From Candidatus Chloroploca mongolica (GTDB lineage: Bacteria; Chloroflexota; Chloroflexia; Chloroflexales; Chloroflexaceae), in contig NZ_SIJK02000002.1 in assembly GCF_004762035.2 (NCBI RefSeq), positions 174,589-230,914 on the forward strand: a DNA stretch of 56,326 bases, read 5' to 3'. Made by a program: the position numbers and the translations under genes. The notes under the pieces were generated by a model. That model ran no database searches, was not told where the DNA came from, and saw nothing but the letters and a program-made list of their open reading frames with translations. Positions within the stretch are counted from its first letter, which is position 1, and the number at the start of each line of letters is the position of its first letter. Below, in pieces: positions 8,435 through 16,753 of the stretch.

Positions 8435-9214
8435 TCAGGATGGGAGCATCTGCGCAAACCGCTCGATCGCCGCTGCAGCCTGCGGCCAGTCCGGGTCGAG
8501 CATCAGGTCGTGTGCGGCCTCAGGCACGACAATCAGTTCGGCTCGATACGTCGCCGCAGTGACCTGCTGCGCTTCGAGGCCAAAGACCATATCACGCCCG
8601 GCGGCAATGACCACTACAGGCGTGGCGTTGCGCGCCGGTCGCGGTCGCAACACCATGCTCTGCATCGTCACCAGCGGCGGCTCGGCGACCATCTGCGCAA
8701 CATAGCCATGCAACGCTTCGGGGTCAATCTCGGGGCGGAAGAGCAGCTTGCGCATCGTCTCGGGCTCGCGGCGCAGCATCGCTCGTGGATCGATCTGTGC
8801 TTCAGGGGGCGTTGTTCGGGTAAGGAAATAGCGCACGCTGTCAACCGGCGAACTGCAGAGCAACACAACGCCAGCCAGCGGCGGCACTGGCCCAAAGCGT
8901 CCCGTCATATAGAGTTGCGCCAGATATCCACCCGAGCTATGCCCAACTAGGATCGGCGGTGCCGGCAGCGCCCGCACCACATTGATCAGATCGCGTCCAT
9001 AATCAGACGCCGTCGTGAGCCAGTGGCGCCGCGGGCGATCACTCGCCCCATGCCCCCGCGTACTAAAGGCATGCACCAGAAAGCCACGCGCCGCCAGGTC
9101 ACGCATCGCCTCGTGCCAGCACCACGCGCCATGCCACGCCCCGTGCAACAGCAGCAGCGGCGAAGCATAGCGCTGAGTAACTGGTTGCATGCAGATGTGT
9201 TCTAACGTATGCAT
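8435..9214 (-). CDS. Alpha/beta hydrolase
   Basis: 259 residues with the alpha/beta-hydrolase layout: the oxyanion-hole segment LLLHGAWHGAWCW (about 20-32), nucleophile elbow GHSSGG (Ser at about residue 96), an acid in VVIAAGRDMVF, and the catalytic His in PEAAHDLMLD near the C-terminus. The size and the HGAWH start resemble esterases and lipases of the salicylate/methylketone esterase type. The start at 9214 is uncertain; the ATG at 9190 is an alternative. It is downstream of and probably co-transcribed with the acyl-ACP-reductase-like gene, separated by a GCGTCAAA element, which suggests (weakly) a lipid or ester substrate. Confidence 0.85.
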   Translation of the reverse strand: MHTLEHICMQPVTQRYASPLLLLHGAWHGAWCWHEAMRDLAARGFLVHAFSTRGHGASDRPRRHWLTTASDYGRDLINVVRALPAPPILVGHSSGGYLAQLYMTGRFGPVPPLAGVVLLCSSPVDSVRYFLTRTTPPEAQIDPRAMLRREPETMRKLLFRPEIDPEALHGYVAQMVAEPPLVTMQSMVLRPRPARNATPVVVIAAGRDMVFGLEAQQVTAATYRAELIVVPEAAHDLMLDPDWPQAAAAIERFAQMLPS

Positions 9215-9219
9215 CGTTC

Positions 9220-9246
9220 TTTGCGCCTTTGCGCCTTTGCGTCAAA
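9220..9246 (-). repeat. GCGCCTTTGCGTCAAA dispersed element
   Basis: Same sequence as at 7634-7660, lying immediately upstream of the hydrolase start and after the stop of the 681-residue dehydrogenase-like gene. Confidence 0.9.
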
Positions 9247-9274
9247 TCATCGGGCAACTTCATGCACAGTCTTC

Positions 9275-11320
9275 TTATGCCGAGCCGATCTCGTGCGGCA
9301 AGCCACGCTCGCGGCGCAGTTCCTCGGCGAGGCGTCGTTTCTCGGCGATCATTTCGTCGGTAACATAGACCCCAAAAGAACGCAGGCCAGCCAGTTTCAA
9401 GCCATGCTTCTGCCAGAGCCGGTACATCTCTTTGACCCGGTCGATCTCAATCGTCCGCCCAAGGGTGTAGTCTTCGAATTTGCCGTCCATCGCCAGCAAC
9501 GCCGTTTCAGAAAGACATGCGTAGGCGGTGCCCGGAGGCATATCAATATCAAAGCCAAAGTCTGGTTCGCCTGGCAACACGATTTCGCCGCTTTCGACGA
9601 TCAGCACGTCGGGACGACGGGCCGCATCCGCTTCTTTGACATCAGGCGGGCGGGCGACGTCACAGATCACCGCCCCTGGTTTGAGCTTGTCAACATTGAT
9701 CACCTTGCCCGTCAGCGCACTGGTCGTCGTAATGATCAGGTCGGCGTCGCCAACATAGGCATCAGGGTGCGTCGCCGCAATCACCCGTGCCCCCGGGGTC
9801 TCCTGCTCGATCTGCTGCTTGAGCAAGAGCAGGCGCTCGGGGCGCGGCGCAATCAAGACAACATCGCGCACCGCCTGGGCCAGCAACCGCGCACAGACCG
9901 CGCCAATCGAGCCGGTTGCGCCAATGACTACAGCGCGAACCTTGTCGGGCCGTCCGCCCTTCATCAAATAGACCGCCTGCTTGGCCGCTTCGAGCGTCGC
10001 GGCCACCGTCAACGAATTGCCCGAGGTAATGCCAATATCGGCTTTCTGCGCTACCGTAATGCCCGCATCGCCAACCACCGAGGTAAAGGCACCGAGGCCC
10101 ATCAGTTGTGCGCCCATCCGCTCAGCCATCCGGGCAGCACGAATAAGCCGCCGATAGGTGAAACTCGGTGGGCGGCGCATCATCTCGCGGGGCGTCGTGC
10201 CCAGGCTCAAGAGAATACCTTCCGCCTCCTGGCCGGTCGCAATCGAGCGAATCCCCCTGATCCGCGAAAGGTAGAGTGGTGGCATATGGGCGGCGATCCG
10301 CTCCACAACGCGCTCAGGCAAAAAACGTGTCCAGCTAAACCGGGGGTCATTGGCAATCAGGCTGGTGCGCAACGGGTGGATCACAAACGCAAATTTCGGC
10401 AGCGGGCGCGGATTCAAATCTTGCACCGTCGGCGTCCACCCGGCGGCAGCAATGAAATCGAGCGCATCGGCCTCACCTGGTTGCCCATCGGTCTCTTGCA
10501 GGGCCACCATGATCGCCTCGATGGCATCGGCGGCAAGGAAAGGCCGCTCGGTACTGATGGGCGGGGTCATTGTCACCAGGGTCATCACCCCACGTTCACG
10601 CAACTCCTCGATCTCCGCTGGCGAAGGATCATCGGTAATGATCGTCTTGCCCGTCAGATCGTTGGGCGCAAAGCGGCGAATAAAGGCAAAATCACCGGCA
10701 ATCACCTGGGCCCACTCAAAGAGCCCTGTTGCCCGACGGTCGTGCCCCTCCTGGCCAAGCGCGACCGGGTGCAGAATGCGGTACGGCAAAAGTGCCGTCA
10801 AAGGCAGCGTCGTCGCCGCATAGAGCTCAAGCTGTTCAAGCGAGCGCGGCACGGGGAGAAAGGCGAGCCCACTATGGATCAGCGGATCAGCAAACCGCAT
10901 TTCGGGCTCATACTGACTGATCGCCGCCGCAAGCTGATAACGTTCAATCCCACTGGTCATCAGTACGCGTCGATAGCGCAACAGCGACGGAATCTTGCGC
11001 ACTGCCTGCGCAATCGCCCAGCGCTCGAGCGTCGCCTTGACCACCCCACCATCAACAACCGGCGTGCGACGCGCCTCAGCCGCAATCTGGATCGCCTCGT
11101 GATGCGGATAACGCGCCCGGCCAACCCGAAAAACCGGCGTCAAACCACCAAGCCCGATTGCGTCAACCCGCCCATCGAAAGCTCGGATTAACTCGGCAGC
11201 ACGCGCCGTATTGCCATCTACCCCAAGTCGCTCAAGTTCTATCGTCTGGCCAAGAATGGACGTCGTTACACGATAATCACGGGCTGAGGAACCCAGACTG
11301 ATACTTACAATGCGCTTCAT
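9275..11320 (-). CDS. Two-domain protein with an acyl-ACP-reductase (AAR)-like C-terminus
   Basis: 681 residues; start supported by GGAGG 9 bp upstream. The C-terminal part (about residues 385-665) follows cyanobacterial long-chain acyl-ACP reductase: LGAFTSVVGDAG, a TSGNSLTVA motif, NADP-binding VVIGATGSIG (about 460-469), ADLIITTTSALTG, and a Cys near residue 600 in YACLSETALLAMDG. That Cys aligns with the thioester-forming cysteine of AAR. The N-terminal 300 residues (SLGSSARDYRVTT, AIGLGGLTPVF, VVDGGVVKATLERW) form a second domain not present in cyanobacterial AAR, and I do not recognise it with certainty. If the alignment holds, the reaction would be NADPH-dependent reduction of an acyl thioester to an aldehyde. 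Automatic annotation as shikimate/quinate dehydrogenase is likely but not well supported. The neighbouring hydrolase fits lipid metabolism. Confidence 0.7.
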   Translation of the reverse strand: MKRIVSISLGSSARDYRVTTSILGQTIELERLGVDGNTARAAELIRAFDGRVDAIGLGGLTPVFRVGRARYPHHEAIQIAAEARRTPVVDGGVVKATLERWAIAQAVRKIPSLLRYRRVLMTSGIERYQLAAAISQYEPEMRFADPLIHSGLAFLPVPRSLEQLELYAATTLPLTALLPYRILHPVALGQEGHDRRATGLFEWAQVIAGDFAFIRRFAPNDLTGKTIITDDPSPAEIEELRERGVMTLVTMTPPISTERPFLAADAIEAIMVALQETDGQPGEADALDFIAAAGWTPTVQDLNPRPLPKFAFVIHPLRTSLIANDPRFSWTRFLPERVVERIAAHMPPLYLSRIRGIRSIATGQEAEGILLSLGTTPREMMRRPPSFTYRRLIRAARMAERMGAQLMGLGAFTSVVGDAGITVAQKADIGITSGNSLTVAATLEAAKQAVYLMKGGRPDKVRAVVIGATGSIGAVCARLLAQAVRDVVLIAPRPERLLLLKQQIEQETPGARVIAATHPDAYVGDADLIITTTSALTGKVINVDKLKPGAVICDVARPPDVKEADAARRPDVLIVESGEIVLPGEPDFGFDIDMPPGTAYACLSETALLAMDGKFEDYTLGRTIEIDRVKEMYRLWQKHGLKLAGLRSFGVYVTDEMIAEKRRLAEELRRERGLPHEIGSA

Positions 11321-11547: not shown

Positions 11548-13488
11548 ATGCTTGAGCCGGGGGCCATTCTCCAGGATCGGTATAAAATTGTTGAGCAGAT
11601 CGGCAAAGGCGGGATGGGCGCCGTCTATCACGCCCGTGATCTTCGTCTGCGTACCGATGTAGCGCTCAAAGAGACTTTTTTTCAGGATGCCGTCTACCGA
11701 CGGGCGTTTGAACATGAAGCGCAGGTGCTTGCCCGCCTCCGCCATCAGGCTCTCCCACGTGTCATTGACCATTTCAACGAGGGCCAGGGCCAGTTTCTCG
11801 TGATGGAGTTTATTCACGGTGAGGATCTGGGCAATCAGATTAATCGCCTCGGACGCCGTTTTGCGTCGCCGCAAGCCATGCCCATGATTCTGCGGTGGAC
11901 CGATCAGTTGCTCGATGCGCTGAATTATCTCCATACACGCCCCGTCCCGGTCTTTCACCGTGATATTAAACCCAAAAACCTGAAACTCACCCAGAGTTAC
12001 GATATTATTCTGCTTGACTTTGGGCTTGCCCGTGGCGGGGTGACAGTGGCGATTGATCTTGAAGAGGTGGCCGATGCATCGGCCAATGCCCGCAAGATTT
12101 ATGGCTTCACGCCACCCTATGCACCAATCGAGCAGATGCGCGATGGTGAGGCTGACCCACGCAGCGATCTCTATTCGCTCGCGGCCACCATGTATCAACT
12201 GTTGACCGGAACCCTTCCCGTTGATGCGATGACGCGCATGACGCGCATGATCAGTGGGCAAGCCGATCCGCTCAAGCCAATCCGCACGGTTGCCCCTCAC
12301 GTGTCTGAACCCGTCGCCAAGGTGCTCGAACACGCGCTTGCCGTGATGATCGATGAACGCCCCGCCTCGGCCCGCGAGATGCGCACCGCGCTGGCCCGTG
12401 CGCGCAACCAGGGCGGCTCGCGAGAACGGGCGCGCGCACGACAGGAAAACGCTGAACAGGCCCCCCCTGAGCAAGAACTCCCGGTTGAGGCCGCACCGGA
12501 ACCAATCGCAGGTCTTGTGCCCGGCGAAGTGACGGCTGGCAATCCGCTTGCTTCGCAGACCGGGTCGGGCGACAGTCAGGCGATCACTGGATCAAGTCTC
12601 GATCCTCAAGCCACCCTCTTGCATATGCTGACCACCGGTAGCCCCATCCGTTCAGTCGCCTTCAATCCGGCGGGTGATCTGCTCGCCGCTGGCTATGACG
12701 ATCATACCGTCGGGCTCTGGCAGGTCAATAGCTATAGTCCGCTCGCTACCCTCAAAGGCCATGCCAGCAGTGTGCGAAGTGTCGCCTTTGCGCCCTATGG
12801 CAATCTCTTGGCTACCGGCAGCGATGATGAGACGGTGCGCCTCTGGCAGGCCAATGATGGTGCCTTCATCCGTGAGTTGCGCTTGCCCGGGTGCCCGGTA
12901 GAAAGCATTGCGTTTAGCCCCGATGGAACAAAACTGCTCATTGGTGGCTGGGGTGGTTCGCTCGCGCTCTGTGAAGTCGATCACGAGTATGTGCGGATCA
13001 CCAAGACCCTCATCTGCCCGTTTGTCCATAGTGTCGCGTTTAGCCCCGATGGCAACCTGATTGCGGCCGGAGGCTACGATGGGGCGGTCTATCTCTGGCA
13101 GGTGAGCGATGCGTCGCCCTTGCCTTCATTGAGCGGCTTTCCAACCTTCATTCTTCGCGTCGCCTTTAGCCCCGATAGTACCTACTTCGCCGCCAGTAGC
13201 AATACGAGTATTCAGGTCTGGCGGATGAGCGACCAGAGGCCGATCGAGTTTTTTCAAGAACATCGTGGGCCTGTTCACGCTATCGCGTTTAGTCCTAATA
13301 GCCAGTTGCTGGTCACAGGAAGCGAAGATAAGAAGGTCTTTTTCTGGCGCCTCAGCGATGGAGTCCGCATCCCTGTTGCGTTAGAACATCGTGCGGGTAT
13401 CGCCTCGCTCGCCTATAGCCCCGATGGCAAGCTCCTGGCAACAGGATGCCACGACGGGCGTCTGTACTTATGGACGGTAGGCGTCTAA
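11548..13488 (+). CDS. Ser/Thr protein kinase with C-terminal WD40 beta-propeller
   Basis: 646 residues. The PknB-type kinase domain spans about 10-280: glycine loop GKGGMGAVYHARD, catalytic loop FHRDIKPKNL (about 134-143) and DFGLARG (about 157-163) for Mg-ATP. An unstructured Pro/Glu-rich linker runs to about 350. Then about seven WD40 blades follow to the end, with repeated VAFSPDGxLLAxG and VxLWQV motifs. No transmembrane segment is seen, so it is probably cytoplasmic, with the propeller acting as a protein-binding sensor. A TATACT box at 11505-11510 may be its -10. The sensor kinase gene follows after 58 bp and may be in the same transcript. Confidence 0.93.
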   Translation: MLEPGAILQDRYKIVEQIGKGGMGAVYHARDLRLRTDVALKETFFQDAVYRRAFEHEAQVLARLRHQALPRVIDHFNEGQGQFLVMEFIHGEDLGNQINRLGRRFASPQAMPMILRWTDQLLDALNYLHTRPVPVFHRDIKPKNLKLTQSYDIILLDFGLARGGVTVAIDLEEVADASANARKIYGFTPPYAPIEQMRDGEADPRSDLYSLAATMYQLLTGTLPVDAMTRMTRMISGQADPLKPIRTVAPHVSEPVAKVLEHALAVMIDERPASAREMRTALARARNQGGSRERARARQENAEQAPPEQELPVEAAPEPIAGLVPGEVTAGNPLASQTGSGDSQAITGSSLDPQATLLHMLTTGSPIRSVAFNPAGDLLAAGYDDHTVGLWQVNSYSPLATLKGHASSVRSVAFAPYGNLLATGSDDETVRLWQANDGAFIRELRLPGCPVESIAFSPDGTKLLIGGWGGSLALCEVDHEYVRITKTLICPFVHSVAFSPDGNLIAAGGYDGAVYLWQVSDASPLPSLSGFPTFILRVAFSPDSTYFAASSNTSIQVWRMSDQRPIEFFQEHRGPVHAIAFSPNSQLLVTGSEDKKVFFWRLSDGVRIPVALEHRAGIASLAYSPDGKLLATGCHDGRLYLWTVGV

Positions 13489-13546
13489 GTGTCGCCATGG
13501 TGCAATGGCACGGTAAGGTGGAATGACCGTGTGATAAGGCACAACT

Positions 13547-16500
13547 ATGAGCCAGAGAACCCACCTGAGCCTGCAACGCAAACTGTTCCTCGCCTTTGTC
13601 CTGGTGATGCTCATTCCGATTGTCGTGCTCTCGGGTTATGTGTTGGTGCGCGTGCGCGCCATGATTGTGCAACAGGTCAGTACCGATCAACTGCGCCTGC
13701 TTGAAACTCAGGCGACGCTGCTCAACGGTCAATTGGTCACCAGCGGAAGTGACCTGATTATTGCGCTCAAGTCGGCTGAACTGCAACAGTATGCCGCGCA
13801 GCGAGACGATCCTCAGCCTCTGATCCAGAGTTTTGCCACCTTCTTGCGCCAGTCACAGGGACGCTACACTGGCCTCTGTCTGCTTGATATCGAGGGCAAC
13901 GAAGAGGTCTGTGTACGGGCCACTGAGGGTGCCTATCTGTCCGTCCCTCAGGCCGAACTCCGGAACCGTGCGGCTACACCGAGCTTTCAGCGCACCCTCC
14001 TCCAGGCGCAAGCCGGCCCCGGGGTACCGCTGACGATGACCCGGATCCCGTCCCATGCCAACGAAGTTCCACGCCTTGATCTTGCGACGACCTATCTTGA
14101 TGACTCAGGTGCCGCGATCGGGGTACTCGTCCTCGAAATGCCGCTGGAGCCCTTGTTTGCCACCTTCCATACCGAGACACCAGACATCGAAATTTCGGTC
14201 GTTGAACACGATGGCACCTATCTCTTTGAGCAGAATCAACTCACGACTTCAACCCAGCCGGCCCGTCGGCTTGATCAGGTGCATCCAGCGAGCGCGGCGA
14301 CGATCCTTGGTCAAAGCGCGGGCATTCTGATCAATCCAACTGATGCCCCGGGCAAGTTGCTTACCTTTGCCCGGGTGTCACCATCAAGCCGGAGTGTGTT
14401 GCAATGGACGCTGATCTACGAGCAGCCGATCGACAAACTGCTCGGCGGGGTCACTGAAACGTATCTCGTTATCGGGTTGATCACCGGTCTTAGCATCCTT
14501 GTGGCCCTGATCGCTGCCCATCTGCTCTCCATCACCATTGTCCGACCAATCCAGCACCTGGCAGCCGCAGCCGAACAGATCGGAGCAGGCAACCTTGCCA
14601 TTCCTATTCCGCAGACTGGCCCCGCCGAGATCCGCGCGCTTGGCCAGACGCTCGATCAAACGGTGAGCCGCCTGCAGACAGCCCTGACCACGGCGGAACA
14701 ACGCCGCCATGAGGCCGAGGCCCTTGCCTCAGCGATGCAGATGTTGAGTGCGAGCCTCAACCGCGAAGAGGTGCTGGGGCTGATTTTTAGCGAACTGCGC
14801 AAGGTTGTGCCCTATGATAGTGCGTCGGTGCAAGCGATCCAGGGCGACGCCTCGGTGATCATCGGCTGTTATGGCCTCGCCTACGCCGAGTCTTTGATTG
14901 GCATACGGTTCAGCCTGCAAGCGGGAACGACCCCCAACGCCGAAGTTGCCCATAGCCACACACCGTTGATCCTCAACGATGCCACCCAGAACTATCCGTA
15001 CTTCAACGACGATCCACCGATCAATAATCCTATCTGCGCCTGGATGGGGGTGCCGATGCTGATGGGGGATCGCTTGCTCGGCATCATCACGCTCGACAAG
15101 TACGAACGCGGTTTCTATACCGTGGAACATGCCCGCCTCGTGGCCGTCTTTGCGACCCAGGCGGCGATTGCGATGGAACATGCCCGCCTCTACGAAGAAG
15201 TCTCGCGTGAACTGGCCGATCGCCGCCGCGCCGAGGCCGCGTATGCCCGGCTCGCCGCGATTATTGAGTCAACCAACGACCTCGTTGGCATGGCCCGTCC
15301 CAATGGCGAAATTCTCTTCCTCAATACCGCTGGGCGTCACGTGCTCGGCATTTTACCCGATGAAGATCTTGCCACCATCCGCGTGACCGATCTCTATCCG
15401 CCTTCACGGTTGGCATGGCTGCGTACTGAAGCGATCCCTGCGGTGATGCACGAGGGGATCTGGTCAGGCGAGTCGATCATCTATGCCCGTGATGGTACCG
15501 AGATCCCCGTTGAGCAGGTCATCCTCGCGCATCGCACCCCCGATGGTCAGACCGAGTTTATTTCAACGATTGCCCACGATATGCGTGAGCGGATGCGCGC
15601 CGAAGAACAACTGCGCGAAAGCCAGAAGATGGAGGCCCTGGGCCGCCTGGCTGGCGGGGTCGCTCACGATTTCAATAATCTGTTGACGGTCATTATGGGC
15701 GAGGCCGATCTTATCCTGAGTGACCCACCTGACGATGAGGATCTCTGCACCTCGATCGCACAGATCCGTCAGTCAGGCGAACGAGCCGCCACGCTCACCC
15801 GCCAGTTGCTCGCCTTCAGCCGTCGCCAGGTGCTCCAGACGGAAACGATTAGTCTCAACGAAGTCCTGACTGATATCGAACAACTTTTGCGACGTTTAAT
15901 CGGCGAACAGATCCGACTTCAGATCAACTTGGATCCTGACCTTCCGCTGGTACGAGCCGACCCCGGGCAGATGACGCAGGTCGTGATGAACCTGGTGATC
16001 AATGCACGCGATGCGATGCCCGATGGAGGCATCATTGCGCTGACAACCACGCAACGCTCGATTACCCCCGCAATGGAAACCGAGTATGCCTCTGTGGAGG
16101 CCGGCACCTATGCGGTGTTGACCGTACGTGATACCGGCCAGGGCATAGATGAGCAGACCCGCGATCATATTTTTGAGCCTTTTTTTACCACCAAACCACG
16201 CGGCAAAGGGACTGGTCTGGGGCTGGCAACGGTGCATGGGATTGTTCGGCAGAGTGGGGGCAAAATTTTGTTTGCGAGCCAGCCCGGTCAGGGAACACAA
16301 TTTGTGATCTACCTTCCCGTCGTTGTCGCCGCAGAAATACCGCCCATGACGTCACCCGATCCGACGGCTCAAGCGCACAAGACAAAAGCCTGTACGATTC
16401 TGCTGGTTGAAGATGATGCGAATGTACGCGAACTGACGCGCCAGTTGTTATCCCGCCTGGGCATGGTGGTGTTAGAAGCCAGTGATGGCGAGGCGGCGCT

Positions 16501-16753
16501 GGCCATCATTCGCAGCCATCCTACCCCGATTGATCTGCTCCTCACCGATGTCGTGATGCCTGGCGAACTGAACGGATTTCAACTCGGTGTTGCCGTCCAG
16601 ACGCTCTGCCCCTCTATCCGCACCATCTATATGTCTGGCTATAGCGACATAGCCCTGCGCCAGCAAGCGTTGGCCGACCAGGCGATCTGCTATTTGCAGA
16701 AGCCCTTCACCGCCGATGAACTCGCCCAGGCTCTGCAGGCGATGATCACCTAA
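13547..16753 (+). CDS. Hybrid sensor histidine kinase/response regulator (Cache-HAMP-GAF-PAS-HK-REC)
   Basis: 1068 residues. Membrane helices at about 12-34 and 305-328 bracket an extracytoplasmic Cache-like sensor domain. HAMP covers about 328-380, GAF about 405-560 (FATQAAIAMEHARLYEEV at its end), and PAS about 565-690. In the HisKA segment GGVAHDFNNLL the phospho-acceptor His is near residue 705. The ATPase domain has the N box in NLVINARDAM, DTGQGI, and GTGLGLATVHG. A C-terminal receiver has acidic VEDD, phospho-acceptor Asp in LLLTDVVMP (near 1000), and a KPF lysine. The DFNNLL H-box is the type common in hybrid kinases with phosphorelay. No output regulator or Hpt protein is encoded next to it. 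The signal is unknown. Confidence 0.93.
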   Translation: MSQRTHLSLQRKLFLAFVLVMLIPIVVLSGYVLVRVRAMIVQQVSTDQLRLLETQATLLNGQLVTSGSDLIIALKSAELQQYAAQRDDPQPLIQSFATFLRQSQGRYTGLCLLDIEGNEEVCVRATEGAYLSVPQAELRNRAATPSFQRTLLQAQAGPGVPLTMTRIPSHANEVPRLDLATTYLDDSGAAIGVLVLEMPLEPLFATFHTETPDIEISVVEHDGTYLFEQNQLTTSTQPARRLDQVHPASAATILGQSAGILINPTDAPGKLLTFARVSPSSRSVLQWTLIYEQPIDKLLGGVTETYLVIGLITGLSILVALIAAHLLSITIVRPIQHLAAAAEQIGAGNLAIPIPQTGPAEIRALGQTLDQTVSRLQTALTTAEQRRHEAEALASAMQMLSASLNREEVLGLIFSELRKVVPYDSASVQAIQGDASVIIGCYGLAYAESLIGIRFSLQAGTTPNAEVAHSHTPLILNDATQNYPYFNDDPPINNPICAWMGVPMLMGDRLLGIITLDKYERGFYTVEHARLVAVFATQAAIAMEHARLYEEVSRELADRRRAEAAYARLAAIIESTNDLVGMARPNGEILFLNTAGRHVLGILPDEDLATIRVTDLYPPSRLAWLRTEAIPAVMHEGIWSGESIIYARDGTEIPVEQVILAHRTPDGQTEFISTIAHDMRERMRAEEQLRESQKMEALGRLAGGVAHDFNNLLTVIMGEADLILSDPPDDEDLCTSIAQIRQSGERAATLTRQLLAFSRRQVLQTETISLNEVLTDIEQLLRRLIGEQIRLQINLDPDLPLVRADPGQMTQVVMNLVINARDAMPDGGIIALTTTQRSITPAMETEYASVEAGTYAVLTVRDTGQGIDEQTRDHIFEPFFTTKPRGKGTGLGLATVHGIVRQSGGKILFASQPGQGTQFVIYLPVVVAAEIPPMTSPDPTAQAHKTKACTILLVEDDANVRELTRQLLSRLGMVVLEASDGEAALAIIRSHPTPIDLLLTDVVMPGELNGFQLGVAVQTLCPSIRTIYMSGYSDIALRQQALADQAICYLQKPFTADELAQALQAMIT

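Follow-up and report, generated by a model that had tools for sequence, protein, structure and literature searches.

The window analysed here, a 56,326-nucleotide stretch of contig C83 in the genome of Candidatus Chloroploca mongolica (G000; 6.32 Mb in 160 contigs), encodes on its minus strand a two-domain protein, followed by an alpha/beta hydrolase gene. The following features are referred to throughout (AAR, acyl-ACP reductase):

9275–11320, minus strand: fused two-domain reductase (paralog A), putative; ATG start, 681 aa, stop included
10406–11320, minus strand: N-terminal domain, residues 1–305; Cys-less AAR-fold domain by predicted structure
9278–10405, minus strand: C-terminal putative thioester-reductase domain, residues 306–681, by PDB profile search
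9902–9922, minus strand: dinucleotide loop GATGSIG, residues 467–473, aligned with AAR 162-GATGDIG-168
9482–9523, minus strand: YACLSETALLAMDG, residues 600–613, which holds C602, aligned with AAR C294
10484–10537, minus strand: N-domain residues 262–279, a helix with E268 and no Cys, matched by eye to the C602xxE605 helix
8435–9214, minus strand: alpha/beta hydrolase, 259 aa (PF12697, E 1.4e-28), 60 bp downstream of paralog A

The fused protein was recovered at full length from 16 other genomes at 65–83% identity in a sample of 19 genomes of the order that included the window genome. The GATGSIG loop, C602 and E605 are invariant in all 17 aligned fused proteins, and Y618 and R622 are kept alongside them in this alignment. 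By this conservation the reading frame is a real gene, maintained in its order. A long open reading frame on the opposite strand (9209–11191, plus strand, 660 aa) is taken to be a shadow of the conserved minus-strand reductase gene. An initial annotation of this DNA had described a C-terminal half with an NADP loop and a thioester cysteine, an extra N-terminal domain of about 300 residues and a hydrolase neighbour; the loop and cysteine could be placed at exact positions, the additional domain spans about 305 residues, and the hydrolase lies on the same strand as the reductase. Beyond the 5' end of the reductase gene, on the plus strand (11548–16753), lies a gene for a protein kinase–WD40 fusion of 646 aa, and after it one for a large hybrid sensor kinase of 1068 aa.

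Among the libraries searched, PigE comes closest in sequence to the C-terminal half. The half matched the PigE TR domain model NF053554 with E 2.6e-53 and 181.6 bits, below the cut-off of 850, and the AAR model TIGR04058 with E 1.6e-14 and 54 bits, far below the cut-off of 449.7. Single-sequence searches of the PDB gave the same order (PigE 4ppm, 1e-28; AAR 6jzq, 2e-10), as did a profile of 14 C-domains, which matched PigE 4ppm at 3.5e-47 over profile positions 3–357 of 370, AAR at 2.4e-31 over positions 39–336, and the carmabin TAD at E about 5e-9. Assignment to the AAR family is thus not upheld. By these scores the domain belongs to the AAR/PigE/TamH superfamily as a relative, not as a member of the AAR or PigE family, and since it lies closer to the PigE TR domain, AAR-type domains outside cyanobacteria are not new. 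PigE and TamH are likewise natural fusions, although joined to a class III aminotransferase where the window protein has an AAR-fold domain; a Pfam scan of the 681-aa protein found no match to the aminotransferase family PF00202 that is fused in PigE.

Several residues of known function in AAR can be placed in the C-domain. In AAR, C294 carries the acyl group, the 162-GATGDIG-168 loop binds NADPH, and three arginines, R189, R193 and R314, bind the NADPH phosphate, as described in PMC7089970. R193 and R314 align with window residues R496 and R622, and R189 aligns with a proline beside an arginine; R496 is replaced by lysine in a second fused protein of the window genome (paralog B, below). The domain shares with AAR (6jzq, 6jzu, 6jzy and 6jzz) the GATGxIG loop, the cysteine and an ACxxE helix, and has aligned arginines at two of the three phosphate-binding positions. 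According to PMC9594044, TamH forms the C12 aldehyde with NADH when an acyl-ACP partner feeds it, and its product was not seen in that report when C12-CoA was given; thioester reduction is reported for PigE in PMC8341465. From sequence, the C-domain is an AAR/PigE/TamH-type thioester reductase with its predicted nucleotide loop and acyl-accepting cysteine in place, and kinship with AAR, TamH and PigE together with the aligned catalytic residues makes reduction of a thioester to an aldehyde a well-based inference. We know of no activity for any member of the fused reductase family.

Two other assignments were considered for this domain. The top Pfam match of the 681-aa protein, PF01488 (E 5.3e-5, 23.8 bits), would fit an enzyme of the shikimate/quinate dehydrogenase type that lacks a thioester site, but that match falls below its cut-off of 24.3 and spans the Rossmann part only, while PigE and AAR score far better and the thioester cysteine is present in 17/17 fused proteins; the HMM comparison therefore disfavours this alternative, which we consider very improbable. 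The second, alkane synthesis with an aldehyde-deformylating oxygenase (ADO), draws on a fold and motifs that are those of the cyanobacterial alkane pathway. ADO (PF11266), however, was found in 0/60 genomes of the order, G000 included, with a positive S. elongatus control, so that an alkane branch is unlikely and this reading is the least credible of those weighed here.

Turning to the N-terminal domain, residues 1–305 matched nothing in Pfam, NCBIfam or the PDB sequences, and the same holds for free-standing relatives of the domain encoded in other genomes; matches of an N-domain profile to the proteasome protein Rpt2 (best E 0.025) were taken as chance. The domain had been listed as being of unknown function, a description that two AlphaFold models now refine, since both show a Cys-less AAR fold with pLDDT of 90 and 92. 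The first model (AF2), built from the window sequence and 52 free-standing relatives, reached pLDDT 90.4 and pTM 0.89. When the top 1000 Foldseek chains were re-aligned (VIA), four AAR entries led (6jzq: Z 15.2, rmsd 4.6, 250 residues aligned), followed by the carmabin TAD (Z 13.5–13.8) and then sugar-binding/LacI folds at 10.8 or less. Ranked by Foldseek E-value, sugar-binding proteins lead and AAR stands 11th at 3.6e-5, and the highest listed query TM-scores (0.47–0.50) belong to AAR and TAD. A second model reached pLDDT 91.9 on 35 sequences, all of them free-standing, and gave the same VIA ranking, with AAR at Z 14.7–15.1, TAD at 13.4–14.1 and the next unrelated fold at 10.1; it is a repeat and not a fully independent test because the two alignments, A3 and A5, which took in 52/80 and 35/80 of the scanned loci, share many sequences. 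A BFVD search returned nothing at E ≤ 0.001. The carmabin TAD (9e50, 9e4u, 9e56) is accordingly related in sequence to the C-domain and, at Z 13.4–14.1 in the two models, the second-best fold match of the N-domain, but unlike the window protein it is part of a chain named as an amino acid adenylation domain protein.

The window N-half has no cysteine, and no N-domain column holds cysteine in more than 3/17 fused proteins. A GATGSIG-like or GxGxxG loop, sought with a simple pattern, is missing from 16/17 fused N-domains, and the GRGELG of the remaining protein (L020) sits elsewhere. Four acidic residues, D49, D145, D210 and E268, are kept in all 15 aligned N-domains, fused and free-standing. 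Direct comparison of the N- and C-domains was not significant, either by hhalign (E 0.2, probability 0.3%) or by a custom profile test (7.49 vs a block-shuffled mean of 7.09, sd 0.59). The hhalign alignment chooses the same register for the E268 helix and the C602xxE605 helix, again without significance, and a motif-by-motif correspondence of the two domains, drawn up by eye, is not treated as a test. Because neither comparison was significant, the argument for kinship between the two domains is drawn from the fold. We describe the region as an AAR-fold domain without cysteine and not as a proven AAR descendant; the models suggest descent from, or convergence on, the AAR fold as its likeliest origin. 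Lacking cysteine, the window N-domain cannot carry out cysteine chemistry and therefore probably has a partner role.

The fused proteins appear to share one origin. In a tree of N-domains a single branch (100/100) separates fused from free-standing rows, and in a tree of C-domains all 30 fused rows and one C-only row, from G219, fall into one 100/100 group; both trees were midpoint-rooted, omit duplicate sequences and rows shorter than 250 (N) or 280 (C) residues, and include the N-only rows L042–L121 thinned to every sixth. The simplest reading of these trees is one fusion followed by one loss of the N-domain in G219, although the G219 branch is long and its placement unsure. Since this C-only form groups with the fused proteins, G219 may be able to do without the N-domain.

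The fused group divides into two paralogs, A (the window protein) and B, and the window genome carries both. Its paralog B is 51% identical to the window protein over nearly the whole length, with the N-half diverging faster than the C-half (36% vs 63% identity). Copies in other genomes were assigned by identity to this B copy, at 65% or more for B and 50–55% for A. Among 60 genomes of the order, full-length A was found in 36, B in 17, and one or both in 37; the remaining entries of 45 matches comprise the C part in G219, a broken copy in G214 and six weak Rossmann-type matches. In the window genome, paralog B lies on a 16 kb contig (L041, 3006–4927 and 9780–13542) that by eye also carries two photosynthetic reaction-centre-like genes, and it adjoins what by eye is a nitronate-monooxygenase-like gene.

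Paralog B provides the most direct link to a pathway. WS/DGAT (PF03007) was found in 13 of the 60 genomes, all of which carry B (Fisher 5e-10 over genomes, kinship not corrected); counted by genus, B is present in 6/6 WS genera vs 1/17 others (Fisher 7e-5, likewise not corrected for kinship). The B-bearing genomes without PF03007 are G000, G221 and G228, from the window's genus, and G227, which is 82% complete. In five genomes (G094, G198, G223, G238 and G240) the WS reading frame lies directly downstream of B and overlaps its end, by ATGA in four and by a longer stretch in one. The two WS proteins scanned both contain PF03007 and PF06974. No such adjacency to B was found in the other 8/13 WS genomes, where the WS gene sits on a different contig or elsewhere. 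Paralog A, the commoner of the two, is likewise present in every one of the 13. Together, these genomic observations are good evidence that paralog B acts in wax-ester formation, and the overlapping B–WS/DGAT pair is a direct, testable candidate for the reductase step of wax synthesis. The wax-ester route first proposed for this locus thus gains ground through the overlap of B with WS/DGAT.

Wax esters of C31–C37 are listed for Roseiflexus and Chloroflexus in PMC4400912, where they figure as storage lipids measured in phototrophic mats, and a WS/DGAT-type protein is reported for Roseiflexus castenholzii in PMC4520822. In the literature passages searched, a gene named for the wax reductase step in these bacteria was not found, and a word search in the main text of the C. 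aurantiacus genome paper (PMC3150298) gave no mention of wax, quinate, fatty alcohol, hydrocarbon or acyl-ACP reductase. PMC4400912 refers to wax-ester-associated genes of Roseiflexus, citing Klatt 2013, and a candidate for the reductase step may already have been named there. Reductases of the PF07993/NAD_binding_4 type were counted only at E <1e-40, because the model cut-off is uninformative (60/60 genomes and 14/14 controls match). At this threshold a match is missing from 22/23 sampled genomes of the window's family, G234 being the exception; strong matches occur in 7/9 genomes of family f2, 2/6 of f4, and G203 and G229, with none in genera g1, g3 and g9. To our knowledge, the bacterial fatty acyl reductases that feed WS/DGAT are of SDR/NAD_binding_4 or related types, not of AAR type, so that paralog B, overlapping WS/DGAT, would do the same job by a different type of enzyme. 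The fused reductase may be a missing step in wax making by these bacteria.

The wax synthase requires an alcohol, and no alcohol dehydrogenase gene lies between B and the overlapping WS/DGAT. This arrangement, the AAR-like fold of the N-domain and its four fully conserved acidic residues would fit an N-domain that is a second active reductase, converting aldehyde to alcohol, so that the whole protein would be a four-electron, alcohol-forming acyl reductase. The missing GxGxxG-type pattern and the faster divergence of the N-half argue against such an activity, and we regard it as unlikely.

The ties of paralog A are different. No WS/DGAT was found above cut-off in the window genome (best E 0.062), and in genus g3, to which G118 belongs, 7/7 sampled genomes carry A without PF03007; paralog A is therefore not tied to a known wax synthase. 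Likewise, a sample of 25 genomes from families f2 and f4 and from genus g7 yielded no WS/DGAT, and full-length A is present in 8/9 genomes of f2. In the window's own family, full-length A occurs in 21/23 sampled genomes, with no match in G232 and the C part in G219, and in 18 of these 21 the gene directly downstream of A is the one closest to the window hydrolase. Of the 18 pairs, the frame in G226 is truncated and that in G094 has one stop inside the match; the genomes that depart from this arrangement are G234, G236 and G240. Among the matches listed for families f2 and f3, the best hydrolase relatives are not beside A. The alpha/beta hydrolase is thus a probable operon partner of paralog A in the window's family, and it could possibly act as an esterase, a thioesterase or an ester-forming enzyme.

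This linkage leaves some room for a C-domain that reduces an acyl thioester for another product, such as an aldehyde, an alcohol or a signal, which would be handled by the hydrolase and not pass into wax. The lack of WS/DGAT in the window genome is consistent with such a role, as are the signalling-like neighbours (alpha/beta hydrolase, V4R, Ras/Arf-like GTPase, DUF4388, hexapeptide protein and RR-GGDEF) of free-standing C-domains in Anaerolineae-type genomes. Against it stand the overlap of the related paralog B with WS/DGAT, and the wax esters of Chloroflexus and Roseiflexus (as listed in PMC4400912) together with the lack of a strong PF07993 match in g3 and g9. We judge this alternative to be the strongest of the rivals, if still rather unlikely.

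Thus, we propose that the window protein is a two-domain long-chain acyl thioester reductase that feeds wax-type lipids and carries a Cys-less AAR-fold partner domain, a reading to which we assign a probability of roughly 0.6. By analogy with AAR, PigE and TamH, C602 would be acylated by acyl-ACP or acyl-CoA with release of the carrier, and NADPH would then reduce the thioester to a fatty aldehyde in a ping-pong manner. The N-domain would probably assist the C-domain as a partner with a structural, regulatory or product-handling role. Reduction of the aldehyde to an alcohol would lead on to wax-type esters, a link that would be direct for B, through its WS/DGAT overlap in some relatives, and that for A is drawn by homology. 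A more elaborate version of this proposal holds that a Cys- and loop-less AAR-fold pseudo-reductase was fused once to an active AAR-type twin before the A/B duplication, that the pair supplies the fatty-acyl reductase missing from wax synthesis in filamentous green bacteria, and that the hydrolase is the ester-forming partner in lineages without WS/DGAT (Chloroflexus-like bacteria and the window's genus); taken as a whole we offer it as speculation that is probably wrong in some part.

The N-domain also opens a large uncharacterised family, which by its predicted fold resembles a reductase that lost its catalytic cysteine. Relatives are encoded by at least 500 stretches of genome contigs, and the best 80 of these (L042–L121) all fall in Chloroflexota records, as judged by record titles, with the exception of L077. 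That locus (927–1823, 58% identity), labelled Neomarinimicrobiota, carries the N-domain with an NTP transferase and PAP2 operon, and may reflect either a transfer or the misbinning of a Chloroflexota contig. Among the same best 80 of at least 500, an NTP-transferase gene follows the free-standing N-domain in 72 and a PAP2 gene is additionally present in 68, assignments made through PF12804 and PF01569 on one example each; several of the remaining loci stop at a contig edge. The C-domain was found in none of those 80 loci. The product of this three-gene operon is perhaps a lipid head group. In family f11, several genomes carry N- and C-domains as separate, distant genes.

Free-standing C-domains have neighbourhoods of their own. 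In families f11 and f66 they lie in a conserved cluster (L028, 7235–12667; also L022, L025, L033 and L038), which in L028 comprises by Pfam a DUF4388 protein, a Ras/Arf-like GTPase, an alpha/beta hydrolase, a V4R-like protein and a hexapeptide protein; L033 shows part of this cluster, including an RR-GGDEF protein, and the very long protein that follows the cluster is by eye a sensor. A scan of viral contigs for the C-domain gave six pattern matches, none encoding a relative, and no free-standing N-domain was found in plasmid records. C-domain relatives occur in 17 plasmid records, with 13/17 rows annotated as class III aminotransferase. Finally, a Chloroflexota locus (G145; L037, 5991–8564) encodes an 858-aa protein in which a class III aminotransferase is followed by a C-terminal reductase domain, in the TamH-like order.
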